64,000 nucleotides of DNA from Mesorhizobium sp. LMG 17147 (GTDB lineage Bacteria > Pseudomonadota > Alphaproteobacteria > Rhizobiales > Rhizobiaceae): the NCBI RefSeq assembly GCF_024297145.1, contig NZ_JANCTC010000001.1:372001-436000 (forward strand), in the 5' to 3' direction. Position numbers and translations under genes: made by a program. The notes beneath the pieces are model-generated. The model saw nothing but the letters and a program-made list of their open reading frames with translations, was not told where the DNA came from and ran no database searches. This document shows, piece after piece, positions 4,527-64,000 of this stretch (its first letter is position 1; every line of letters starts with the position of its first letter).

Positions 4527-5107
4527 GAGCGCACCTCTTCGACGAGCGCCTTGGCTTCTAGCTCGGCCTGCTCATGCACCGATATGAACGGAGTGGGATC
4601 GTCCATCTGACCGCGCATGATGGCGATCTTCTTGATGATCTCGGAAATGCCCTGCAGCGCGAGCAGAAAAAAGCCGACCAGCAGAATCGCCTTCGCCGGC
4701 CAGATGATCAGCCCGCCAGAATTGTTCGACATCTCGCCGCTGCGATACGACAGCGACACATAGGGAACGAAATAGACGACCATCAACGTCACGAACGGCA
4801 TCAGGAAGAAGACGTGACCGAAAAGGTCGATCCAGTGCTGCACGCGGCGCGAGAACATGCCGTAGACGATATCGATGCGGATATGGTCGTTCTGTTTCAG
4901 AGTGTAGGCGGCGGCCAGCATGAAGGCGGCGCCGAACAGATACCATTGCAATTCCAGCCAGGCGTTCGAGGACATGTCGAACACCTTGCGGATCACGGCG
5001 TTGGCGGCGCTTACCAGGATCGCCAGCAGGATCAGCCACGAAACCCATTTGCCGATGAATTCGTTCAAACGGTCAATGCCTCTGGAAAGAGCGAGAAGCC
5101 CTGCCAT
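4523..5107 (-). CDS. TRAP transporter small permease, DctQ type
   Basis: Small four-helix membrane subunit that docks with DctM. A longer open frame exists, but ATG 5107 is preferred because GGGAGGA lies just upstream and translation then begins MAGLLALSRGIDRLNEFIGK, the usual DctQ amino-terminal helix. The product has 194 residues with hydrophobic segments near residues 17-37, 50-70, 95-115 and 135-155, and the WLELQWYLFGAAFMLAAAYTL stretch typical of the family. It is translationally coupled to dctM by a four-base overlap. Confidence 0.88.
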   Translation of the reverse strand: MAGLLALSRGIDRLNEFIGKWVSWLILLAILVSAANAVIRKVFDMSSNAWLELQWYLFGAAFMLAAAYTLKQNDHIRIDIVYGMFSRRVQHWIDLFGHVFFLMPFVTLMVVYFVPYVSLSYRSGEMSNNSGGLIIWPAKAILLVGFFLLALQGISEIIKKIAIMRGQMDDPTPFISVHEQAELEAKALVEEVRS

Positions 5108-53140: not shown

Positions 53141-53740
53141 ATGATCCGCAAATCCCTCACTGTCCTGGTGATCGATGAAAACCACATCCGCGCTTCCATA
53201 ATCGAAGCGGGATTGCGGGAGGCCGGGCATCAGCAGGTCACGGTCATCCACGACGTCGCCGGCATAGCGCGGCGGATCGCCGAGATCGAACCCGACGTCA
53301 TCGTCATCGATCTCGAAAATCCCAACCGCGACATGCTGGAAAACATGTTCCAGCTTTCGCGCGTGGTGAAGCGGCCGATCGCCATGTTCGTCGACCGTTC
53401 GGACCAGGCGTCGATCGAGGCAGCGGTGGAAGCCGGGGTGTCGGCCTATGTCGTCGACGGCCTGCGCCAGGAGCGGGTCAAGCCGATCCTCGACATGGCG
53501 ATCAGCCGCTTCAACGCCTTCTCGCGCATGGCGCGCGAGCTGGAAGAAGCCCGCAGCGAATTGGAGAGCCGCAAGGTGATCGATCGCGCCAAGGGCATCC
53601 TGATGAAGTCGCGCGGCCTGTCGGAGGACGCGGCCTACACGCTGCTGCGCAGGACAGCCATGAACCAGAACCGCAAGATCGCCGAAATCGCGCAGAGCCT
53701 GGTGACGGCGGCAGGGCTTCTGGATCCCGAGGAGAGTTGA
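53141..53740 (+). CDS. nasT: nitrate-responsive ANTAR antiterminator NasT
   Basis: A 199-residue regulator. The N-terminal receiver domain (LTVLVIDENHIRASIIEAGL, VIVIDLENPNRDMLENM) is followed by a coiled linker and a C-terminal ANTAR RNA-binding domain, IDRAKGILMKSRGLSEDAAY ending KIAEIAQSLV. NasT binds paired hexaloop hairpins in leader RNAs and prevents termination when NasS releases it. ATG 53141 is the natural start; the longer frame has no coding character. Its stop is two bases before the nasS start. Its likely targets are the two leaders at 55185 and 58691. Confidence 0.92.
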   Translation: MIRKSLTVLVIDENHIRASIIEAGLREAGHQQVTVIHDVAGIARRIAEIEPDVIVIDLENPNRDMLENMFQLSRVVKRPIAMFVDRSDQASIEAAVEAGVSAYVVDGLRQERVKPILDMAISRFNAFSRMARELEEARSELESRKVIDRAKGILMKSRGLSEDAAYTLLRRTAMNQNRKIAEIAQSLVTAAGLLDPEES

Positions 53741-53742
53741 CG

Positions 53743-54981
53743 ATGGCGGCCGAGTACCGGATCAATGTTGGCTTCATGCCGCTCTTCGACAGCGCTATCC
53801 TTGTCGCGGCGAAGGAAATCGGCTTCGCCCTACGTGAAGGCATCGACCTGACGCTCAACCGGGAAACGTCCTGGGCCAACATCCGCGACCGCATCGCCAT
53901 CGGCCATTTCGACCTGGCGCATATGCTGGGGCCGATGCCGATCGCCTGCAATCTGGGGCTGACGCCGCTCGCCTCCGACACCGTCGTGCCGTTCTCGCTC
54001 GGCCTCGGCGGCAATTGCGTGACGGTTTCGAACGCGGTCTGGGCCGGTATGGCCGCGCACGGCGCCCAACCCGATCTCGATCCGGCGCGGGCCGGCAAGG
54101 CGTTGGGCGCGCTGATCCGCGAACGGGCGAATGGCGGCGGCGATCCGCTGCGCTTCGCCGTCGTCCATCCGCATTCCGGGCACAATTACGAACTGCGCTA
54201 CTGGCTCGCCGCCTGCGGCATCGACCCGTCGCGTGAAATCGAAATCGTCATCGTGCCGCCGCCATTCATGGCCGACGCGCTCGCCGCCGGCAGGATCGAC
54301 GGCTACTGCGTCGGCGAACCCTGGAACAGCGCCGCGGTCGTCGCCGGCACCGGCCATATCGCCACGGTCAAGGCGGCCATCTGGAAGACCAGCCCGGAGA
54401 AAGTCGTCGGCGTGCGCAAGGCATGGGCCGAAAGAGAGCCGGACGCGCTTTCGGCTCTGCTGCGTGCGCTGCATCACGCGGCGCGCTGGTGCCAGGATCC
54501 GGCAAATCGTGGCGAACTCGCGGCCCTGATGGCGCAGCCAGCCTTCCTCGGCCTGGCGCCGGCGCTGCAGATGCCGATCCTCAGCGGGCATCTGGCGCTC
54601 GGCGGCGGCGCCGAACTGAGCGTCGGCGACTTCTTTCTGCCCTTCGACAAGGCGGCGAACTTCCCGTGGAAGAGCCATGCGCTGTGGTTCTACACGCAGA
54701 TGGTGCGCTGGGGGCATGTCGCGCACACGCCGGAAAACCTCGCTATTGCCCGCGACTGCTACCGCCCCGATCTCTACCGCTCGGCGTTGAAGCCGCTTGG
54801 CGTGGCGCTTCCCGGTGCCAATGCCAAGGTCGAGGGCGCGCTGAAGGCCGCGACTCCGGTCGGTTCGGCGGGGGCAAGCCTGGTGCTCGGTCCCGATGGT
54901 TTCTTCGACGGTCAGATCTTCGATCCCGACGAGATCGACGCCTACATTGCCGGCCAGAAATTGGCGCGCGCCGAAGTCTGA
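53743..54981 (+). CDS. nasS: nitrate/nitrite sensor NasS
   Basis: A 412-residue protein of the NrtA/CmpA binding-protein fold but without any signal peptide, so it stays in the cytoplasm. It starts MAAEYRINVGFMPLFDSAIL and carries the family ligand-site blocks FDLAHMLGPMPIA, HPHSGHNYELRYWLAACG and DGYCVGEPWN. In related bacteria NasS sequesters NasT until nitrate or nitrite binds. ATG 53743 has GAGGAG upstream; the gene follows nasT without a gap. Confidence 0.92.
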   Translation: MAAEYRINVGFMPLFDSAILVAAKEIGFALREGIDLTLNRETSWANIRDRIAIGHFDLAHMLGPMPIACNLGLTPLASDTVVPFSLGLGGNCVTVSNAVWAGMAAHGAQPDLDPARAGKALGALIRERANGGGDPLRFAVVHPHSGHNYELRYWLAACGIDPSREIEIVIVPPPFMADALAAGRIDGYCVGEPWNSAAVVAGTGHIATVKAAIWKTSPEKVVGVRKAWAEREPDALSALLRALHHAARWCQDPANRGELAALMAQPAFLGLAPALQMPILSGHLALGGGAELSVGDFFLPFDKAANFPWKSHALWFYTQMVRWGHVAHTPENLAIARDCYRPDLYRSALKPLGVALPGANAKVEGALKAATPVGSAGASLVLGPDGFFDGQIFDPDEIDAYIAGQKLARAEV

Positions 54982-54998
54982 TCATTTCGGCGCCATTC

Positions 54999-55013: not shown

Positions 55014-55131
55014 AAAATGTGCGTGCAACTGCGCTAATGAACAATCTTTGGCTTGCTCGCCCGGCGGGCCGGGGCGCCGACGATTTTGGCATGCCGTTGA
55101 TCTCATTGATGTTTATCATCCATTCCGAAAC

Positions 55132-55147
55132 TGGCACGGTTCCTGCG
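55132..55147 (+). promoter_or_regulatory. sigma-54 (-24/-12) promoter of the nrt operon
   Basis: TGGCACGGTTCCTGCG has the invariant GG and GC separated by ten bases, matching TGGCACG-N4-TTGCW except that the T before TGC is C. Transcription should start near 55158, some 27 bases before the first leader hairpin. Confidence 0.75.
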
Positions 55148-55184
55148 TTGCAATAGGCAGACTCTTCTCGGGGTCACGGAATAG

Positions 55185-55284
55185 GCGTCCAATGGCGGGC
55201 GCTACAGGCAACGCTGCCGCTCAGGTCAACACGCGATCCCGGATGGACGGACGCGCGCGGCCTGGCCGGCGGCTTTTTTGTTTT
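55185..55284 (+). promoter_or_regulatory. ANTAR-type two-hairpin leader with terminator, upstream of nrtA
   Basis: Hairpin 1: GCGTCC (55185-55190), loop AATGGC, GGGCGC (55197-55202). Hairpin 2: GGC (55207-55209), loop AACGCT (55210-55215), GCC (55216-55218). Both six-base loops have A at position 1 and G at position 4, the known ANTAR recognition rule. A terminator follows: GCCGC (55216-55220) and CAGGTC pair with GGCCTG (55259-55264) and GCGGC (55269-55273), then TTTTTT (55274-55279). Hairpin 2 and the terminator share GCC, so they exclude each other. NasT is the expected ligand. Confidence 0.85.
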
Positions 55285-55340
55285 GGTCGAACACGCAATC
55301 GACGGCGCCGATCCCAAGCCGCGCCCAACCGGAGATGACG

Positions 55341-56657
55341 ATGACGAGAAGCACCAATAGCCATTCCGCCCAAACGGCGATGAGCCGCCGCGATTTCCTG
55401 AGGATCAGCGCGGCCACCGCGGCAACGCTGGCCGCGGCGCGTGCGCTGCTGCCCTCCGGCGCCTATGCGGCTACCGCCGTACCGGAAGTCACGGGCGCCA
55501 AGCTCGGCTTCATCGCATTGACCGATGCGGCGCCGTTGATGATCGCCAAGGAGAAAGGCCTGTTCGAGAAATTCGGCATGCCCGATGTCGAGGTGCTCAA
55601 GCAAGCCTCCTGGGGGGCGACGCGCGATAATCTGGTGCTCGGCGGCGAAGCCAACGGCATTGACGGCGCCCATATCCTGACGCCGATGCCTTATCTGATG
55701 CACACCGGCAAGGTGACGCAAAACAAGCAGCCGCTGCCGATGGCGATCGTGGCGCGCCTCAACTACGACTGCCAGGGCATTTCCGTTGCCCAGGAATATG
55801 CCGCCACCGGCGTCGCCCTCGACGCCTCCAGGCTGAAGGATGCCTTCGCCGCCAAGCAGGCCGCTGGCAAGGAGGTCAAGGCCGCCATGACCTTCCCGGG
55901 CGGCACGCACGACCTCTGGCTGCGCTACTGGCTGGCCGCCGGCGGCATCGATCCCGACAAGGACGTCTCGACCATCGTCGTGCCCCCACCGCAGATGGTT
56001 GCCAACATGAAGGTCGGCAACATGGACGTGTTCTGTGTCGGCGAGCCGTGGAACGAGCAGCTCGTCCACCAGGGCGTCGGCTTCACCGCCGCTACCACTG
56101 GCGAGCTATGGAAGGGCCATCCGGAAAAGACGCTCGGCCTGCGCGCCGCCTTCATCGACAAGTATCCGAACGCCACCAAGGCGATCCTGATGGCCGTCAT
56201 GGAAGCCCAGCAATGGTGCGAAGCCAAGGAAAACAAGGACGAGATGGCCGCCATCATCGGCAAGCGGCAATGGATGAACGTGCCGACCGCCGACATCATC
56301 GGCCGCCTCAAGGGCGACATCAATTACGGCAATGGCCGCGTCGCCAACGGCACAGATCTCTACATGAAGTTCTGGCAGGGCGGCGTGTCCTATCCCTTCA
56401 AGAGCCACGACAGCTGGTTCCTCGCCGAAAACATCCGCTGGGGCAAGTTCGCGCCGACCACCGACATCAAGGCGCTGGTCGCCCAGGTCAATCGCGAGGA
56501 TCTGTGGCGCGAAGCGGCCAAGGATCTTGGTGTCGCCGCGGCCGATATCCCGGCGTCTTCATCGCGCGGCGCCGAGACCTTCTTCGACGGCAAGGTGTTC
56601 GATCCGGAGAACCCGTCCGCCTATCTCGACAGCCTGAAGATCAAGGCATCGGCCTGA
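55341..56657 (+). CDS. nrtA: nitrate ABC transporter substrate-binding protein, NrtA/CmpA type
   Basis: A 438-residue periplasmic protein. ATG 55341 has GGAG seven bases upstream, and translation opens with a twin-arginine signal (MSRRDFLRISAATAATLAAA). The mature protein resembles NasS: AKLGFIALTDAAPLMIAKEKG, GTHDLWLRYWLAAGG, DVFCVGEPWN and the C-terminal FFDGKVFDPE. It should bind nitrate or nitrite. Synthesis depends on NasT reading through the leader upstream. Confidence 0.92.
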   Translation: MTRSTNSHSAQTAMSRRDFLRISAATAATLAAARALLPSGAYAATAVPEVTGAKLGFIALTDAAPLMIAKEKGLFEKFGMPDVEVLKQASWGATRDNLVLGGEANGIDGAHILTPMPYLMHTGKVTQNKQPLPMAIVARLNYDCQGISVAQEYAATGVALDASRLKDAFAAKQAAGKEVKAAMTFPGGTHDLWLRYWLAAGGIDPDKDVSTIVVPPPQMVANMKVGNMDVFCVGEPWNEQLVHQGVGFTAATTGELWKGHPEKTLGLRAAFIDKYPNATKAILMAVMEAQQWCEAKENKDEMAAIIGKRQWMNVPTADIIGRLKGDINYGNGRVANGTDLYMKFWQGGVSYPFKSHDSWFLAENIRWGKFAPTTDIKALVAQVNREDLWREAAKDLGVAAADIPASSSRGAETFFDGKVFDPENPSAYLDSLKIKASA

Positions 56658-56740: not shown

Positions 56741-57682
56741 ATGTCTATCCAAGCCATCAAGGACCGCAAGGTGAAGCCGTTCCCCGCGCCTTCCAAGCCC
56801 GCCGAAATCATCGCCTTCACCGCCAGGGCGCGGCGTCGCTTCGACCCGGCCGCAATCTCAGGCAAGCTGGCCAGCACGCTGGTGCCGCCGGTCATCGTCG
56901 TCGCCATCATGCTCATCGTCTGGCAGATCGCCTGTTCGTCGCCGACGGCCAGCCTGCCGCCGCCAAGCCAGGTTTGGAACGAGGCCTATGACCTGATCGC
57001 CCATCCGTTCTTCAACAATGGCCCGCAGGACATTGGGCTCGCCTGGCGGGTGCTGATCTCGCTGCAGCGCGTCGCCATCGGCTTTGGCCTTGCGGCGGTC
57101 GTCGGCGTCGCGCTCGGCGCTCTGGTCGGCCAGTCGATCTGGGCGATGCGCGGCCTTGATCCGGTGTTCCAGATCCTGCGCACGGTACCGCCGCTCGCCT
57201 GGCTGCCGCTGTCGTTGGCGGCGTTCCGCGATTCCAGCCCGTCGGCAATCTTCGTCATCTTCATCACCTCGATCTGGCCGGTGATCATCAACACCGCCGT
57301 CGGCGTCCGCAACATTCCAGAGGACTATCGCAACGTCTCCCGCATCCTCAGGCTCAACCAGCTCGAATTCTTCGTGAAGATCATGGTGCCGGCCGCGGCA
57401 CCTTACATCTTCACCGGCTTGCGCATCGGGATCGGTCTGTCCTGGCTCGCCATCGTCGCCGCCGAAATGCTGACCGGCGGCGTCGGTATCGGCTTCTTCA
57501 TCTGGGATGCCTGGAATTCGTCGCGGCTGCCCGACATCATCGTCGCACTCGCCTATATCGGCGTCACCGGCTTTTGCCTCGACCGCCTGGTCGCGGCGGT
57601 CGGCGTCTTCGTCACCCGCGGCACAACGGCAAAGTGGGAGATGGACGATGACGGCCTATCTGAAACTCGACCATATCGATAA
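56741..57682 (+). CDS. nrtB: nitrate ABC transporter permease, NrtB type
   Basis: A 313-residue permease with a cytoplasmic N-terminus, about six helices (LVPPVIVVAIMLIVWQIAC first) and the ATPase-contact loop IPEDYRNVSRILRLNQLEFFVKIMVP. TVPPLAWLPLSLAAF is the usual SsuC/NrtB signature. ATG 56741 is taken because the longer frame overlaps nrtA. Its end overlaps nrtD by 35 bases. Confidence 0.92.
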   Translation: MSIQAIKDRKVKPFPAPSKPAEIIAFTARARRRFDPAAISGKLASTLVPPVIVVAIMLIVWQIACSSPTASLPPPSQVWNEAYDLIAHPFFNNGPQDIGLAWRVLISLQRVAIGFGLAAVVGVALGALVGQSIWAMRGLDPVFQILRTVPPLAWLPLSLAAFRDSSPSAIFVIFITSIWPVIINTAVGVRNIPEDYRNVSRILRLNQLEFFVKIMVPAAAPYIFTGLRIGIGLSWLAIVAAEMLTGGVGIGFFIWDAWNSSRLPDIIVALAYIGVTGFCLDRLVAAVGVFVTRGTTAKWEMDDDGLSETRPYR

Positions 57683-58445
57683 ATCCTTCATGCGCGGCGG
57701 CCAGGTCAGCGACGTCCTGAAGGACATAAGACTGACCATCGACAAGGGCGAATTCGTCTCGATCATCGGCCATTCCGGCTGCGGTAAGTCGACCTTGCTC
57801 AATCTAATCGCCGGGCTGGCCAAGGTCTCCGCCGGCGCGGTTCTGTTGGAGGACAAGGAGGTCGACAGCCCCGGTCCCGAACGCGCCGTGGTGTTCCAGA
57901 ACCACAGCCTGCTGCCATGGCTGACCGTCTACGAAAACATCAACCTCGCGGTATCCAAGGTCTTCGGCGGCAAAAAGAGCCGGGCCGAACGGCATGACTG
58001 GATCATGCGCAATCTCGATCTCGTGCAGATGGCGCATGCGAAAGACAAGCGCCCAGCGGAGATTTCGGGCGGCATGAAGCAGCGCGTCGGCATTGCGCGC
58101 GCGCTCGCGATGGAGCCGAAGATTCTTTTGCTCGACGAGCCGTTCGGGGCGCTCGACGCGCTGACCCGTGCGCATCTGCAGGACGCGGTGATGGATATCC
58201 ATTCCAGACTCGGCTCGACGACGATCATGATCACTCACGATGTCGACGAGGCGGTGCTGTTGTCCGACCGCATCGTCATGATGACCAACGGGCCGGCAGC
58301 CACCATCGGCGAGGTTCTTCCCGTGCCGCTGGCCCGGCCGCGTCGGCGCATCGAGCTTTCCTCCGACCGCACCTTCCTGCGCTGCCGCGAGGCGGTGCTG
58401 AAATTCCTCTACGAACGCCACCGCTTCGTCGAAGCCGCGGAGTGA
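57648..58445 (+). CDS. nrtD: nitrate ABC transporter ATP-binding protein, NrtD type
   Basis: A 265-residue ATPase with Walker A IIGHSGCGKSTLLN, Q-loop VVFQNHSLLPWLTV, signature ISGGMKQR, Walker B ILLLDEPFGALDALTR and switch MITHDVDEAVLLSD. It lacks the fused binding domain of cyanobacterial NrtC. ATG 57648 lies inside nrtB with GGGAG upstream, so translation is coupled. Last gene of nrtABD. Confidence 0.93.
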   Translation: MTAYLKLDHIDKSFMRGGQVSDVLKDIRLTIDKGEFVSIIGHSGCGKSTLLNLIAGLAKVSAGAVLLEDKEVDSPGPERAVVFQNHSLLPWLTVYENINLAVSKVFGGKKSRAERHDWIMRNLDLVQMAHAKDKRPAEISGGMKQRVGIARALAMEPKILLLDEPFGALDALTRAHLQDAVMDIHSRLGSTTIMITHDVDEAVLLSDRIVMMTNGPAATIGEVLPVPLARPRRRIELSSDRTFLRCREAVLKFLYERHRFVEAAE

Positions 58446-58637: not shown

Positions 58638-58653
58638 TGGCACGCTTCCTGCT
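58638..58653 (+). promoter_or_regulatory. sigma-54 (-24/-12) promoter of the MFS/nirBD operon
   Basis: TGGCACGCTTCCTGCT has GG and GC ten bases apart and is nearly identical to the promoter at 55132. Expected start of transcription is about 12 bases after the GC, roughly 58664. Confidence 0.78.
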
Positions 58654-58690
58654 TTCCAAAATGTAAGGCCCGCAAGGGCCAAGTGACACG

Positions 58691-58790
58691 GCGTCCAATG
58701 GCGGGCGCCACAGGCAAAGCTGCCGCTCAGGTCCACACGCGCTCCCGGAATCCCGGACGCGAAGACCTGGCCGGCGGCTTTTTTGTTTTG
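58691..58790 (+). promoter_or_regulatory. second ANTAR-type two-hairpin leader with terminator
   Basis: A near copy of the leader at 55185. Hairpin 1: GCGTCC (58691-58696), loop AATGGC, GGGCGC (58703-58708). Hairpin 2: GGC (58713-58715), loop AAAGCT (58716-58721), GCC (58722-58724). Loops again have A1 and G4. The terminator pairs GCCGC and CAGGTC (58722-58733) with GACCTG (58764-58769) and GCGGC (58774-58778), followed by TTTTTT (58779-58784). Where the nrt leader has a GU pair, this one has AU, so the stem is conserved by pairing. Confidence 0.85.
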
Positions 58791-58837: not shown

Positions 58838-59086
58838 ATGACGAAACGGATCGGACCTGGCGCGTGCCTCGCGGAATTCACGCGCCGCCATTTTTCTGGC
58901 CAGCAGCGCGCTGTTCACCGCCGCGCTCGTCCTCTTTCCCGCTGGCGCCAAGACTGACGGCAAAGGTTTCGAAGTGACCGTGCACAGCTCGGTTTTCAAC
59001 CAGTTCGCCGATGCCACGCCGCTGACAGTCGCGAACGAACAGCCAAGGGCGGTGCCCCCCACGCCGCAAACCGGAGCCAGAAAATG
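58838..59086 (+). pseudogene. small exported-protein gene, apparently frameshifted
   Basis: ATG 58838 has GGAG upstream and matches the nrtA start region of the duplicated leader, but its frame runs only 40 codons (MTKRIGPGACLAEFTRR) and then stops. The adjacent frame, with typical G/C third positions, reads SRNSRAAIFLASSALFTAAL, VLFPAGAKTDGKGFEVTVHS, SVFNQFADATPLTVANEQPR, then AVPPTPQTGARK and stops at 59086. Its stop overlaps the MFS start (ATGA). This frame has a signal-like hydrophobic core but no normal start codon. One extra base near 58860 would explain this: a real mutation, a sequence error or programmed shifting. Function unknown. Confidence 0.45.
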
Positions 59087-60385
59087 ACCGCAAATCTCCC
59101 AGCCGCGCCCAGCCAGGACACTGCTCCCCGGCAGGCGCTTGTGATGTCCACCATCGCCTTCACCGTCTGCTTCGCGGTGTGGACGATTTTTTCGATCATC
59201 GGCGTGCGCATAAAGCAGGAGCTGGGGCTGAACGAGACGGAGTTCGGGCTGCTCGTCGGCACGCCGATCCTCACCGGCTCGCTCGTGCGCATGGTGCTCG
59301 GTGTCTGGACCGACCGTTTTGGCGGACGGCTGGTATACACCGCGACCATGCTTGCGGCGGCGGTCGCGACCTTCCTGCTCGCGTTTGCGCACACGTACGG
59401 GCAGATGCTGGCCGCCGCGCTAGGCGTTGGGCTCGCCGGCGGTTCCTTCGCCGTCGGTGTCGCCTATGTCTCGCGTTTCTTCCCGGCCGGCAAGCAGGGT
59501 ACGGCGCTTGGCATTTTCGGTGTCGGCAATGTCGGTGCCGCGGTCACCAAGTTCCTGGCACCGTTCGTGCTTCTCTCCTGGGGCTGGCAGACGGTCGCGC
59601 TGATCTGGGCGGCAGCACTTGTCGTCATGGCTGCAGTCTTCTGGTTCACGACCGGCGACGATCCGGTCATTCGCGAGCGCCGCGCCGGCAAGGCTGCACC
59701 CGCGAGAAGCTTCTTGCAGGAATTCGCGCCGCTCAAGAACCTGCAGGTCTGGCGTTTCGCCTTGTATTATTTCTTCGCTTTCGGTGCATTCGTGGCGCTG
59801 TCGTTGTGGCTGCCCCGCTACCTGATCGGCGTCTACGGCTTCGGGCTTGCGACCGCCGGCATGATCGGCGCGGCCTATTCAATTCCGGCAAGTATTTTCC
59901 GCGCCTATGGCGGCGTGCTTTCCGACCGGATCGGCGCCCGCACCGTGCTCTACTGCACCTTCGCTGTGAGTGCCGTCGCGACTCTCGTTCTGTCTCTCCC
60001 CTCGGCAGACTACGTCGTGCGCGGTATCAGCGGGCCGATCGCCTTCCATTTCGAGATCGGCCCGCTCGCCTTCATAGCCGTGGCCTGTGTGCTCGGCTTC
60101 TTCATGAGCCTCGGCAAGGCCGCCGTCTACAAGCACATCCCGGCTTACTATCCGCAGAGTGTCGGCGCGGTCGGCGGCGTTGTCGGCATGATTGGCGGGC
60201 TCGGCGGCTTTATCCTGCCAATCGCCTTCGGCGTGCTCAACGACCTCACCGGCGTCTGGTCGAGCTGCTTCATGCTGCTCTTCGTCATCGTCGCCACCTG
60301 CTTTGCCTGGATGCATTTTTCCATCCGGCGGATGGAGCGCACGGCGTCTGCCGAAGCTTCGGGCCTTTCCTACGCGGCTGAGTGA
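59084..60385 (+). CDS. NarK/NasA-type nitrate/nitrite MFS transporter
   Basis: A 433-residue transporter with 12 predicted helices. Family signatures are the Arg in GTPILTGSLVRMVLG (helix 2), the nitrate motif GVGNVGAAVTKFLAPF (helix 5) and a second Gly-rich motif VVGMIGGLGGFILP (helix 11). Start ATG 59084 overlaps the preceding stop. This is a second nitrate uptake path besides NrtABD, placed directly before nirBD, so it may also take up or export nitrite. Confidence 0.92.
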   Translation: MTANLPAAPSQDTAPRQALVMSTIAFTVCFAVWTIFSIIGVRIKQELGLNETEFGLLVGTPILTGSLVRMVLGVWTDRFGGRLVYTATMLAAAVATFLLAFAHTYGQMLAAALGVGLAGGSFAVGVAYVSRFFPAGKQGTALGIFGVGNVGAAVTKFLAPFVLLSWGWQTVALIWAAALVVMAAVFWFTTGDDPVIRERRAGKAAPARSFLQEFAPLKNLQVWRFALYYFFAFGAFVALSLWLPRYLIGVYGFGLATAGMIGAAYSIPASIFRAYGGVLSDRIGARTVLYCTFAVSAVATLVLSLPSADYVVRGISGPIAFHFEIGPLAFIAVACVLGFFMSLGKAAVYKHIPAYYPQSVGAVGGVVGMIGGLGGFILPIAFGVLNDLTGVWSSCFMLLFVIVATCFAWMHFSIRRMERTASAEASGLSYAAE

Positions 60386-60404: not shown

Positions 60405-62855
60405 ATGACCGAAAAACTCGTCATCATCGGCAACGGCATGGCCCCCGGGCGCATGCTGGAGCATCTCCTGGAAAAGGCGCCTGGGCGCTACCAGGTCACC
60501 ATCTTCAACGCCGAGCCGCGCGTGAACTACGACCGCATCATGCTGTCGCCGGTTCTGTCGGGCGAAAAGGCCTATGAGGAGATCATCATCCATGGCGACG
60601 GCTGGTACATCAAGCACGGCATCACCCTCTACAAGGGCCACAAGATCGTCGCCATCGACCGGCAGGCAAAGACCGTCACCTCCGATCATGGCGTGACCGA
60701 GCCTTATGACAAACTCGTCATCGCCACCGGCTCGGTGCCGTTTATCATTCCGGTGCCCGGCCATGACCTGCCGGGCGTGCTCACCTATCGCGATCTGGAC
60801 GACGTCCGGGCCATGATGCTTGCCGCCCAGTCGCGGGCCAAGGCTGTCGTCATTGGGGGCGGCCTGCTTGGGCTCGAGGCGGCAGCGGGCTTGAACTCAC
60901 AAGGCATGGACGTCACCGTGCTGCACGTCATGCCGACGCTGATGGAGCGTCAGCTCGATCCGGCCGCAGGCTATCTCCTGCAGCGTGCCGTCGAGCAGCG
61001 CGGCATCAAGGTCATCACCAAGGCCAACACGCAGGCGATCACCGGCAACGGCAAGGTCGAGCGGGTGGAGCTTGCCGACGGCACCGTCATTCCCGCAACG
61101 CTCGTCGTCATGGCGGTGGGTATCAGGCCGAACGCGGTGCTGGCGAAGGAAGCCGGCATTGCGGTCAATCGCGGCATCGTCGTCGACGCCGGCATGCGCA
61201 GCAACGACCCGGACATCTACGCAATCGGCGAATGCGCCGAGGTCAACGGCCAGGTCTACGGGCTAGTCGCGCCGCTCTATGAGATGGCGCGCGTCGCCGC
61301 CAGCCAGCTGGCTGGTAACGAGGCGGCAGCTTTCGTCCATATGGACACGCCGACCAAGCTCAAGGTCACCGGCATCGACCTGTTCTCGCTCGGCGACTTC
61401 GCCGAGGGCGAGGACCGCCAGGAGATCGTGCTGCGCGATGCCGCCGCCGGCGTCTACAAACGCCTTGTGCTGAAGGACGACCGCATCATCGGCACCGTGC
61501 TCTACGGCGAGACGACGGACGGCGCCTGGTTCAACGATCTCAAGAAGAAGCAGACCGACATATCCGAGATGCGCGACACGCTCATCTTCGGCCAGTCCTA
61601 CCAGGGAGGCGCCCCCCTGGACCCTATGGCGGCCGTTGCAGCCTTGCCGGATGATGCGGAAATCTGCGGCTGCAACGGCGTATGCAAGGGAAAGATCACC
61701 GGCGCGATCACGGCCAAGGGCTTGACCTCGCTCGACGATGTGCGCGCCCACACCAAGGCGTCGGCGTCCTGCGGTTCCTGCACCGGGCTGGTCGAAAAGC
61801 TCATGGTGCTGACCATCGGCGACAAATACAACCCCGCGGCGGTCCAGCCGATGTGCAGCTGTACCTCGCTTGGCCATGATGAGGTCCGCCGGCTGATCAA
61901 GGCCAAGGGCCTGAAGACCATTCCCGCCGTCATGCAGGAGCTGGAGTGGAAGACCTCTTGCGGCTGCGCCAAATGCCGGCCGGCGCTCAACTATTATCTC
62001 GTCTGCGACTGGCCCGACGAATACGCCGACGATTACCAGTCGCGCTTCATCAACGAGCGCGTCCACGCCAACATCCAGAAGGACGGCACCTATTCGGTAG
62101 TGCCGCGCATGTGGGGCGGCGTCACCAACGCCGCCGAATTGCGCGCCATCGCCGATGTCGTCGACAAGTTCGACATTCCGATGGTCAAGGTCACCGGCGG
62201 CCAGCGCATTGACATGCTCGGCATCCGCAAGGAAGACCTGCCGGCAGTGTGGGCCGATCTCGGTCAGGCCGGGTTCGTCTCCGGCCACGCCTATGCCAAG
62301 GGACTGCGCACGGTGAAGACCTGCGTCGGCTCGGACTGGTGCCGCTTCGGCACGCAGGATTCGACCGGCTTGGGCATCCGTATCGAAAAATTCATGTGGG
62401 GCTCTTGGACGCCGGCCAAGGTCAAGATGGCGGTGTCGGGCTGTCCCCGAAACTGTGCCGAGGCGACCTGCAAGGATGTCGGCGTGATCTGCGTCGACAG
62501 CGGCTATGAGATCCATTTCGCCGGCGCCGCCGGCCTCGACATCAAGGGCACCGAAGTGCTTGGCCTGGTCAAGACCGAGGACGAGGCGCTGGAGCATATC
62601 GTGGCACTGACGCAGATGTATCGCGAGCAGGGCCGCTATCTCGAGCGCATCTACAAATGGGCCAAGCGCATTGGCATCGCCGAGATCAAGCGTCAGATCA
62701 TGGACGATGGCGAGAAGCGCAAGGCCTATTTCGACCGCTTCGTCTTTTCGCAGAAATTCGCCCAGGTCGACCCGTGGTCGGAACGTGCTTCCGGCAAGGA
62801 CAAGCATGAATTCCGGCCGATGGCTTCGGTCGGTTTTGCGCAGGCGGCGGAGTAG
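60405..62855 (+). CDS. nirB: assimilatory nitrite reductase [NAD(P)H] large subunit
   Basis: An 816-residue siroheme enzyme that reduces nitrite to ammonium. The N-terminal FAD part opens KLVIIGNGMAPGRMLEHLLE; the NADH fold is KAVVIGGGLLGLEAAAGLNS. Next is a BFD-like 2Fe-2S domain with CGCNGVCKGKITGAI and SCGSCTG, then CSCTSLG and SCGCAKCRPALNYY. The siroheme/4Fe-4S Cys are in TCVGSDWCRFG and GCPRNCAEATCKD. ATG 60405 gives MTEKLVIIGNG; GTG 60393 in frame is an alternative. Follows the MFS gene by 19 bases. Confidence 0.95.
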   Translation: MTEKLVIIGNGMAPGRMLEHLLEKAPGRYQVTIFNAEPRVNYDRIMLSPVLSGEKAYEEIIIHGDGWYIKHGITLYKGHKIVAIDRQAKTVTSDHGVTEPYDKLVIATGSVPFIIPVPGHDLPGVLTYRDLDDVRAMMLAAQSRAKAVVIGGGLLGLEAAAGLNSQGMDVTVLHVMPTLMERQLDPAAGYLLQRAVEQRGIKVITKANTQAITGNGKVERVELADGTVIPATLVVMAVGIRPNAVLAKEAGIAVNRGIVVDAGMRSNDPDIYAIGECAEVNGQVYGLVAPLYEMARVAASQLAGNEAAAFVHMDTPTKLKVTGIDLFSLGDFAEGEDRQEIVLRDAAAGVYKRLVLKDDRIIGTVLYGETTDGAWFNDLKKKQTDISEMRDTLIFGQSYQGGAPLDPMAAVAALPDDAEICGCNGVCKGKITGAITAKGLTSLDDVRAHTKASASCGSCTGLVEKLMVLTIGDKYNPAAVQPMCSCTSLGHDEVRRLIKAKGLKTIPAVMQELEWKTSCGCAKCRPALNYYLVCDWPDEYADDYQSRFINERVHANIQKDGTYSVVPRMWGGVTNAAELRAIADVVDKFDIPMVKVTGGQRIDMLGIRKEDLPAVWADLGQAGFVSGHAYAKGLRTVKTCVGSDWCRFGTQDSTGLGIRIEKFMWGSWTPAKVKMAVSGCPRNCAEATCKDVGVICVDSGYEIHFAGAAGLDIKGTEVLGLVKTEDEALEHIVALTQMYREQGRYLERIYKWAKRIGIAEIKRQIMDDGEKRKAYFDRFVFSQKFAQVDPWSERASGKDKHEFRPMASVGFAQAAE

Positions 62856-62921: not shown

Positions 62922-63251
62922 ATGAATTGGGTATCGATCGGCTCCCTGTCTGACATTCCGCGTCGCGGTGCGCGCTGCGTCGCAACGCCCGAAGGCAAGA
63001 TCGCCGTCTTTCGTACGGCTGACGATCAGGTCTTTGCCATCGATGACCATTGCCCGCACAAAGGTGGGCCGCTCAGCCAGGGCATCGTCCATGGCACGGC
63101 GGTGACCTGTCCCTTGCACAATTGGGTGATCTCGCTGGAGACAGGCAAGGCGCTCGGCGCCGACGAGGGCGCGGTGCGCACCATCGCGGTGCGGATCGAC
63201 GGCGAGCGGCTGTTCATTGCGCTGGAAGCGCTGGCCAGCCGCGCGGCGTGA
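62922..63251 (+). CDS. nirD: assimilatory nitrite reductase small subunit (Rieske-type)
   Basis: A 109-residue partner of NirB. The Rieske 2Fe-2S ligands are intact: CPHKGGPLSQG and CPLHNWVIS (two Cys, two His). It starts MNWVSIGSLSDIPRRGARCV. It follows nirB by 66 bases and ends three bases before the nitrate reductase start. Confidence 0.95.
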   Translation: MNWVSIGSLSDIPRRGARCVATPEGKIAVFRTADDQVFAIDDHCPHKGGPLSQGIVHGTAVTCPLHNWVISLETGKALGADEGAVRTIAVRIDGERLFIALEALASRAA

Positions 63252-63254
63252 ACC

Positions 63255-64000
63255 ATGCAGATCGATGAAGCGCGCGAGGTGAGGACCACCTGCCCCTATT
63301 GTGGGGTGGGTTGCGGCGTGCTGGCGAAGGTCGCCGCGGACGGTGAAATAACCGTTCGTGGCGACCCGGACCACCCGGCGAATTTCGGCCGGCTCTGCTC
63401 CAAAGGCTCGGCGCTGGCCGAGACCACCGATCTCGAAGGCAGGCTGCTTCATCCGGAGATTCACGGTCGCCGCACCGGCTGGGACGAAGCGCTCGACCTT
63501 GTCGCTTCGACCTTCTCGCAAACCATTGCCGAACACGGCCCCAACGCGGTCGCCCTCTACGTCTCCGGCCAGTTGCTGACCGAGGACTATTACGTCGCCA
63601 ACAAGCTAATGAAAGGTTTCATCGGCTCGGCCAATATCGACACCAATTCGCGCCTGTGCATGGCATCGTCCGTCGCCGGCCACCGCCGCGCCTTTGGTTC
63701 GGACACCGTTCCGGGAAATTACGATGATCTGGAACTTGCCGACCTGATCGTGCTGGTCGGCTCCAATCTCGCCTGGTGCCATCCGGTGCTCTACCAGCGC
63801 ATCGCCGCGGCCCGGGAAAAGCGGCCCGAGATGACGGTGGTGCTGATCGACCCACGCCGCACCATGACGTCAGACATCGCCGACATGCATCTGGCGATCG
63901 CGCCCGATGGCGACGTCGCTTTGTTCACCGGCCTGCTCGCCTATCTCGGCCAGCACAACGCGTTGGACCGCACCTATATCACGGCGCACACGACTGGCTT
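63255..64000 (+). CDS. assimilatory nitrate reductase catalytic subunit, N-terminal part
   Basis: The gene runs off the right edge; 248 residues are visible. ATG 63255 opens MQIDEAREVRTTCPYCGVGC, with the 4Fe-4S Cys pattern C-P-Y-C-x-x-x-C completed by RLCSKGSALAE. The molybdopterin-fold blocks LYVSGQLLTEDYYVANKLMK, DTNSRLCMASSVAGHRRAFG and VLVGSNLAWCHPVLYQR are typical of the soluble NasA/NasC/NarB group. No signal peptide, so cytoplasmic. It reduces nitrate to nitrite for NirBD and is the fourth or fifth gene of the operon controlled by the leader at 58691. Confidence 0.93.
   Translation, partial: MQIDEAREVRTTCPYCGVGCGVLAKVAADGEITVRGDPDHPANFGRLCSKGSALAETTDLEGRLLHPEIHGRRTGWDEALDLVASTFSQTIAEHGPNAVALYVSGQLLTEDYYVANKLMKGFIGSANIDTNSRLCMASSVAGHRRAFGSDTVPGNYDDLELADLIVLVGSNLAWCHPVLYQRIAAAREKRPEMTVVLIDPRRTMTSDIADMHLAIAPDGDVALFTGLLAYLGQHNALDRTYITAHTTG

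Follow-up and report, generated by a model that had tools for sequence, protein, structure and literature searches.

A probable ANTAR-type antitermination leader upstream of nrtABD in a Mesorhizobium nitrate gene cluster

The nitrate gene cluster and the leader of nrtA

The window, by which we mean the whole 64,000-nt stretch of Mesorhizobium sp. LMG 17147 DNA analyzed here, contains a nitrate gene cluster on its forward strand. The following genes make up this cluster:

53141-53740, forward strand: nasT, receiver-like domain and ANTAR domain, presumed RNA-binding antiterminator (Pfam ANTAR E 1.4e-22, Response_reg E 4.5e-08)
53743-54981, forward strand: nasS, presumed to sense nitrate and to hold NasT (NMT1_2 E 3.4e-73)
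55341-56657, forward strand: nrtA, substrate-binding protein of the nitrate ABC transporter (NMT1_2 E 6.5e-106; Tat signal)
56741-57682, forward strand: nrtB, nitrate ABC permease (TIGR01183 E 2.7e-92)
57648-58445, forward strand: nrtD, nitrate ABC ATPase (TIGR01184 E 1.3e-100)
59084-60385, forward strand: nasA, NarK-like nitrate/nitrite MFS transporter (MFS_1; TIGR00886 E 1.3e-60)
60405-62855, forward strand: nirB, nitrite reductase large subunit (TIGR02374, 917.8 bits, over the cut-off)
62922-63251, forward strand: nirD, nitrite reductase small subunit (Rieske_2 E 4e-17)

With nasT and nasS adjacent to each other and upstream of the nitrate genes, the cluster has the arrangement by which a NasS-NasT system is recognized; the sensor role of NasS is presumed by analogy with published NasS proteins (PMC6759348, PMC3795266). 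The match of nasA to TIGR00886 (205 bits) lies under the cut-off of that family (311.7). The closest NrtA loci among the named genomes belong to Mesorhizobium, with up to 96% identity. Downstream of nirD, the first residues of an open frame starting at 63255 resemble, by eye, an assimilatory nitrate reductase.

The spacer between nasS and nrtA harbors the elements of a leader, referred to here as leader 1:

55132-55146, forward strand: sigma54-type -24/-12 box TGGCACGGTTCCTGC (sequence pattern)
55184-55203, forward strand: P1 hairpin, 7 bp, hexaloop AAUGGC at 55191-55196 (folding, motif scan, both-side changes)
55207-55218, forward strand: P2 hairpin, 3 bp, hexaloop AACGCU at 55210-55215 (motif scan, conservation)
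55213-55279, forward strand: intrinsic terminator, which excludes P2 (stem and U-run search, folding, covariation)

Read along the forward strand from 55130 to 55345, the order is box, P1, linker, P2, long stem, UUUUUU, CGGAG and the nrtA ATG at 55341. TGGCACGGTTCCTGC resembles the sigma54 -24/-12 consensus, and its position would place the start of transcription near 55158. P1 (GGCGUCC-AAUGGC-GGGCGCU) and P2 (GGC-AACGCU-GCC) are separated by a linker of 3 nt, and each loop is closed by a C-G pair (C55190-G55197 and C55209-G55216). The first-pass annotation had pointed out that both loops carry A at position 1 and G at position 4, and that the GCC of the second hairpin is also the 5' arm of the terminator. 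The loop rule holds in both hexaloops, and the GCC does lie within that arm; the overlap is not limited to it, however, as the complete arm is GCUGCCG (55213-55219), which pairs with 55267-55273 directly before UUUUUU (55274-55279). More specifically, the 5' end of the terminator is G4 of loop 2 itself, and the stem takes up G4, C5 and U6 of that loop besides the 3' arm of P2. With the overlap corrected in this way, the observation at the nrtA leader is confirmed.

On its own, P2 is a weak hairpin (3 bp, -2.8 kcal/mol in its hexaloop form), and its free folding favors a tetraloop and one additional A-U pair. The terminator can coexist with P1 but not with P2. The predicted free energy of the leader is -54.1 kcal/mol with P1 and the terminator vs -45.2 kcal/mol with P1 and P2 forced; since the former is the more stable, termination is expected of the unbound RNA, and some factor would have to hold P2.

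To gauge chance expectation, the 356-nt nasS-nrtA spacer was shuffled 5000 times with its dinucleotide composition preserved. Any dual A1/G4 hexaloop with a stem sum of at least 7 appeared in 62/5000 shuffles, one with a stem sum of at least 10 in 8/5000, and a dual hexaloop combined with an overlapping terminator in 0/5000. The window itself holds seven dual A1/G4 pairs on the forward and three on the reverse strand, and a terminator accompanies only two of them, at 55184 and 58690. A consensus-scanner search found no sigma70-type promoter and a single terminator-like site, a hairpin with a T-rich tail at 54968-54993 that spans the end of nasS and may end the nasTS transcript (0.7 such sites expected by chance). 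The real terminator was missed by this scanner because its loop exceeds the scanner's limit.

Conservation of the leader and a second copy before nasA

Among the 61 genomes sampled from the genus, 27 (own genome included) encode an nrtA orthologue at a cut-off of E <= 1e-150, and the dual A1/G4 hexaloop is present in 27/27. Loop 2 reads AACGCU in the window alone; all 26 relatives have AAAGCU. Outside these, nine family-level nrtA orthologues of 68-80% identity were found; L009 and L010 share the leader form of the window, and L004-L008, L011 and L012 have, by eye, a second form. The distant nrtA-like locus L025 has the hexaloops without the U-run, and the leader motif is absent from L031. A broader set of 80 named nrtA loci, with some genomes in common with the earlier sample, contained the dual hexaloop with overlapping terminator at 76/80 loci vs 0/1600 shuffles, and the sigma54 box pattern, at a fixed distance, in 79/80 upstream regions vs 17/1600 shuffles. 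The four loci failing the strict test (L181, L197, L203, L207) did so because it demanded a P1 stem of at least 5 unbroken pairs, and theirs have 4, 4, 4 and 2.

Covariation was assessed in 36 distinct Mesorhizobium-type leaders. Across them, 97.9% of the cells of the terminator helix are paired, and its covariation score is 0.190; none of 500 shuffles reached either value, although the shuffles carry no correction for the kinship of the sequences, which inflates covariation counts. Two further measures of the terminator are unexceptional: it has 2 pairs changed on both sides, a count reached by 122/500 shuffles, and 6 pair types, a count reached by 363/500. P1 contains three pairs with changes on both sides. 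Position 3 of loop 2 pairs with the base before the U-run as A-U in 30 and as G-C in 5 of the 36 leaders, and this pair is broken in the window alone. None of the three pairs of P2 varies in the Mesorhizobium-type set, which leaves P2 with no covariation of its own; its support therefore comes from its place, the loop rule, the overlap and the second form (GAC/GUC vs GGC/GCC). A smaller alignment gave a weak signal, with four of five measures reached by 26/500 shuffles and the fifth by 500/500.

Upstream of nasA, the window contains a second set of elements:

58638-58652, forward strand: sigma54-type box TGGCACGCTTCCTGC of leader 2 (sequence pattern)
58690-58784, forward strand: leader 2, upstream of nasA-nirBD (motif scan, folding, covariance model R1 E 4.0e-12)
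58838-58957, forward strand: small ORF, frame-shifted here, with similarity to the 5' end of nrtA (sequence comparison)

Leader 2 is nearly identical to leader 1, with P1 at 58690-58709 (loop AAUGGC), P2 at 58713-58724 (loop AAAGCU), a terminator stem formed by 58717-58725 with 58772-58780 and a U-run at 58779-58784. A covariance search for ANTAR motifs, proposed as a check by the first-pass annotation, was carried out with a model (R1) built from 21 leaders, both window leaders among them. Only two strong sites were found genome-wide, both before nitrate genes of the nasTS cluster, at 430687 (E 4.0e-12) and 427181 (E 2.0e-11) of contig C11, corresponding to window positions 58687 and 55181; as both leaders are in the model, high scores are expected, and it is the gap to the next match (E 0.014) that counts. 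Of the 34 weaker matches in the own genome, the 10 inspected are without U-run or sigma54 box and lie inside open frames of 298-1006 codons, and three weak matches in relatives (L126-L128) lack both U-run and box; all of these were set aside.

Within the genus, an R1 match with E <= 0.01 occurs in 55/61 genomes, and two strong leaders lie 3.46-3.56 kb apart in 13/61, own genome included (a manual count of the pairs). The 48 leaders that were placed lie 3' of nasS or nrtD and 5' of nrtA, nasA or, at L089/L121, a remnant of nrtD. The strict sigma54 pattern missed 14 of these 48, all of which carry TGGCACG-N4-GTGC or -ATGC in the corresponding position. The leader at L125 precedes an NrtA-like gene of 33% identity. 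L121 and L089 belong to one genome (G087), in which nasS is followed by a leader, a C-terminal nrtD remnant (residues 160-297), a second leader match and nasA; nrtAB and most of nrtD look to have been lost there. The leaders at L122 and L123 have the loops AACGAC/AATGAT and AAGGCT, and nasA begins about 103 nt further on, without a small ORF between.

A stretch resembling the 5' end of nrtA is present in 12/12 leader-2 regions (leaving out L120, the 13th two-leader genome, which the pattern did not match) and in 13/15 regions of the order nasS-leader-nasA. We rejected the idea that the stretch after leader 2 is a decayed nrtA, as a small ORF is intact in 21/27 of these regions (8/12 and 13/15; e.g., L124, L108 and L116). 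It encodes 54-65 residues, similar to the N-terminus of NrtA, with a segment of twin-arginine and membrane-like character; the window and L115 have frame-shifted versions. NCBIfam contains no family for it. The median pairwise dN/dS of the 20 of 21 intact copies passing the filter is 0.34 (0.10-0.90). Duplication of the nrtA leader together with the start of the gene to a site before nasA would be the simplest history of this arrangement.

narK RNA and a three-hairpin form of the leader

At gathering scores, Rfam reports only a tRNA in the window. Under these scores, the window matches RF03032, the narK RNA, at 13.5 bits, too low for membership in a family with a gathering cut-off of 43.2; the other weak matches (HOTTIP_3, sR43, mir-1247 and ar35) were taken as chance. 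Matches of RF03032 in the own genome stay at chance level (best E 0.53); with so loose a cut-off, 13 of 14 control genomes give matches too. The nrtA leaders of the relatives L004-L008 and L011 score 23.4-37.7 bits, likewise under 43.2. The narK RNA was reportedly described by Weinberg in 2017; RF03032 is not mentioned in the papers searched here.

The RF03032 consensus starts with GGCaCAgcucUUGCU, continues with a hairpin with the loop AACGGC and ends with ACGACAAAGACGUCGC. GGCaCAgcucUUGCU is presumably a sigma54 -24/-12 box, and ACGACAAAGACGUCGC, in which Rfam marks no pairs, can be folded as a second A1/G4 hexaloop. RF03032 thereby resembles the window leader in its sigma54-like box, first hexaloop hairpin, second A1/G4 hexaloop, terminator and location upstream of nitrate genes. 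It differs in P2 (GAC/GUC vs GGC/GCC in the window) and in that the model marks the first hairpin only.

Thirty narK loci (L129-L158) were fetched among the 36 matches listed. A strict second A1/G4 hexaloop is present in 25/30, and a loose pattern detects a sigma54-like box in 29/30, although hexaloop and box are partly imposed by the Rfam model; an overlapping terminator stem of at least 6 bp, which is independent of the model, is present in 27/30 vs 8/1108 control positions. A NasA-, NrtA- or NirB-like gene lies 3' of the narK RNA at 26/30 loci. At E <= 0.001, RF03032 occurs in 21/398 genomes of the phylum, 16 of them over its cut-off, and an ANTAR protein is encoded in 21/21 of these genomes vs 134/377 others (Fisher 1e-9, a value of lower real weight because 16 of the 21 genomes come from one family). 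Judged by its sequence, RF03032 seems to be one and the same device, with a sigma54 box followed by dual ANTAR hairpins, and the comparison proposes a regulator and a mechanism for this Rfam family.

In Rhizobium and Agrobacterium, the second form has a P2 of GAC-NNNGAC-GUC in nearly all loci and a linker of 29-39 nt in a set of 58 loci and of 28-39 nt in a set of 62. At the loci L176-L238, this leader lies upstream of nrtA, at about 4760-4920 in most locus coordinates. The linker alone folds at -3 kcal/mol or better in 62/62 loci, with a mean z of -2.6 vs mononucleotide shuffles and some individual z values near zero. From 35 of the 62 loci, chosen for diversity, RNAalifold recovers this third hairpin unaided, and changes on both sides occur at all six of its pairs. 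In 500 shuffles, none of the measures of the three-hairpin structure was attained. Induction by EutV fell drastically with a 14-nt linker, and 20 extra nucleotides ended antitermination in vitro. The spacer helix of the second form could hold P1 and P2 close. The third hairpin can fill the supposedly strict ANTAR spacing, and searches for short linkers could miss such leaders.

Proteobacterial NasT leaders quite probably form a class larger than catalogued, one that would include both the narK RNA, with a sigma54 promoter, and not RNA, as its conserved 5' end and a second ANTAR hexaloop as its unmarked 3' end, and the three-hairpin form of Rhizobium and Agrobacterium. If so, the three-hairpin form would break the published ANTAR spacing rule unless the spacer helix joins P1 and P2.

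NasT and the proposed mechanism

In the EutV-RNA structure (PMC8934654), a dimer touches two hexaloops in succession, and 11 EutV residues are reported to be in contact with RNA. NasT aligns with EutV without gaps across the ANTAR domain, and 8/11 of these residues are identical in NasT. They include Tyr164 of EutV, which stacks on G4 (Y166 in NasT), and Met172 (M174); among the remaining sites, R149 and K179 are K/R exchanges and N177 is different. Stems of at least 3 bp, A1 and G4, C-G closing pairs, a terminator overlap and an ANTAR protein with the contact residues, the features by which an ANTAR motif is recognized, are all present at the locus. A C-G loop-closing pair also emerged from SELEX with NasR (PMC7496416). 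The linker of 3 nt in leader 1 lies inside the ANTAR range of 2-25 nt (PMC8164766) and equals that of a shortened EutV construct with impaired function (PMC3369931).

These sequence comparisons lead us to read 55184-55279 as an ANTAR-type antitermination leader of nrtABD and a target of the neighboring NasT, with a probability of about 0.9. The anatomy of the leader, its conservation, the compensatory changes in P1 and the terminator and a NasT with the expected RNA contacts all argue for this. At the level of sequence, the suggestion in the first-pass annotation that NasT acts here by antitermination is thus supported by the adjacent nasT and nasS, the A1/G4 loops, the mutually exclusive terminator and the compensatory changes.

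NasT binding, the response to nitrate and read-through would then proceed as follows. The transcript would start at the sigma54 promoter, at about 55158. Without nitrate, NasS would hold NasT, as in other species. Without NasT, the leader would fold into P1 and a strong terminator whose 5' arm takes up bases of loop 2, G4 among them, and polymerase would stop at 55274-55279. Nitrate or nitrite would release NasT, which would bind the P1 and then the P2 hexaloop as these emerge; nitrate-dependent release of NasT from NasS has been published (PMC3795266). Bound NasT would keep P2 folded and 55213-55219 apart from 55267-55273, allowing polymerase to enter nrtABD. Leader 2 would put nasA-nirBD under the same NasT control.

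The strong predicted terminator (-54.1 kcal/mol for the leader) and the sigma54-type box would also suit an ordinary attenuator or terminator, with nrtA controlled by the sigma54 promoter alone and NasT uninvolved. We consider this very unlikely. Such an element has no need for conserved A1/G4 hexaloops or for P1, yet P1 carries compensatory changes and 76/80 loci keep the dual hexaloop with its terminator; moreover, a terminator 3' of the gene's own promoter would merely silence the gene. That the leader is read by another ANTAR protein than NasT is highly improbable. The genome does encode a second one, on contig C70, but its ANTAR match is weak (27.8 vs 82.1 bits for NasT), by eye its neighbors are an AmiC-like protein and an ABC permease, at a distance from the nitrate genes, and NasT is encoded beside both leaders. 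That second protein (locus L002, 1099-1701) appears AmiR-like by eye.

The label 'narK RNA, Cis-reg' in Rfam, together with the weak match of 13.5 bits, might suggest that the leader senses a small molecule directly, as a riboswitch or another RNA element. This is scarcely credible, as the score is far under the gathering cut-off of 43.2, the Rfam match itself consists of the sigma54 box and hexaloop hairpins, and no conserved core was seen beyond the two hairpins and the terminator.

NasT hairpins are predicted for narK and bjgb of Bradyrhizobium diazoefficiens, yet both genes are up in a nasT deletion under denitrifying growth, which counts against a simple NasT-hairpin rule; most nasT-dependent genes there are reported without such hairpins (PMC6759348). 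In the Paracoccus denitrificans nasA leader, most expression was lost when the first hairpin was mutated; in the presence of nitrate, changing the second made little difference (PMC5424462).

ANTAR antitermination is in print for EutV (PMC3369931), NasR (PMC7496416) and NasT (PMC6759348, PMC5424462), so the locus applies a known rule: the leader itself is of a known kind, and the less familiar points lie around it. ANTAR motifs near nitrate transporters have already been reported, in a paper whose main text names neither Mesorhizobium, NasT nor narK (PMC3369931). Like Enterococcus faecalis eutP with EutV (PMC3369931, PMC8934654), the locus has two short A1/G4 hexaloop stems, the second inside an intrinsic terminator, and a regulator with the same key RNA-contact residues. 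In contrast to eut, the linker is 3 nt (5-12 nt in eut), the signal is presumably nitrate via NasS (phosphorylation by EutW in eut) and the promoter is of the sigma54 type. Klebsiella oxytoca NasR/nasF (PMC7496416) shares ANTAR antitermination of nitrate assimilation, the two-hairpin motif and C-G closing pairs, although NasR is a single protein that includes a NIT sensor domain, and NasT and NasS are separate here.

Further close counterparts are the alphaproteobacterial NasS-NasT antitermination systems of B. diazoefficiens nosR (PMC6759348) and P. denitrificans nasA (PMC5424462), and in Paracoccus, too, the leader lies between nasS and the structural genes. On this reading, the locus would be a clear example, from a Mesorhizobium-like genome, of antitermination as a means of nitrate control. 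How nitrate regulates soil and root-nodule bacteria matters for nitrogen use and for the release of N2O. Unlike nosR and Paracoccus nasA, the cluster described here has two near-identical leaders, before nrtABD and nasA-nirBD, and the second suggests that one RNA switch may serve both uptake and reduction.
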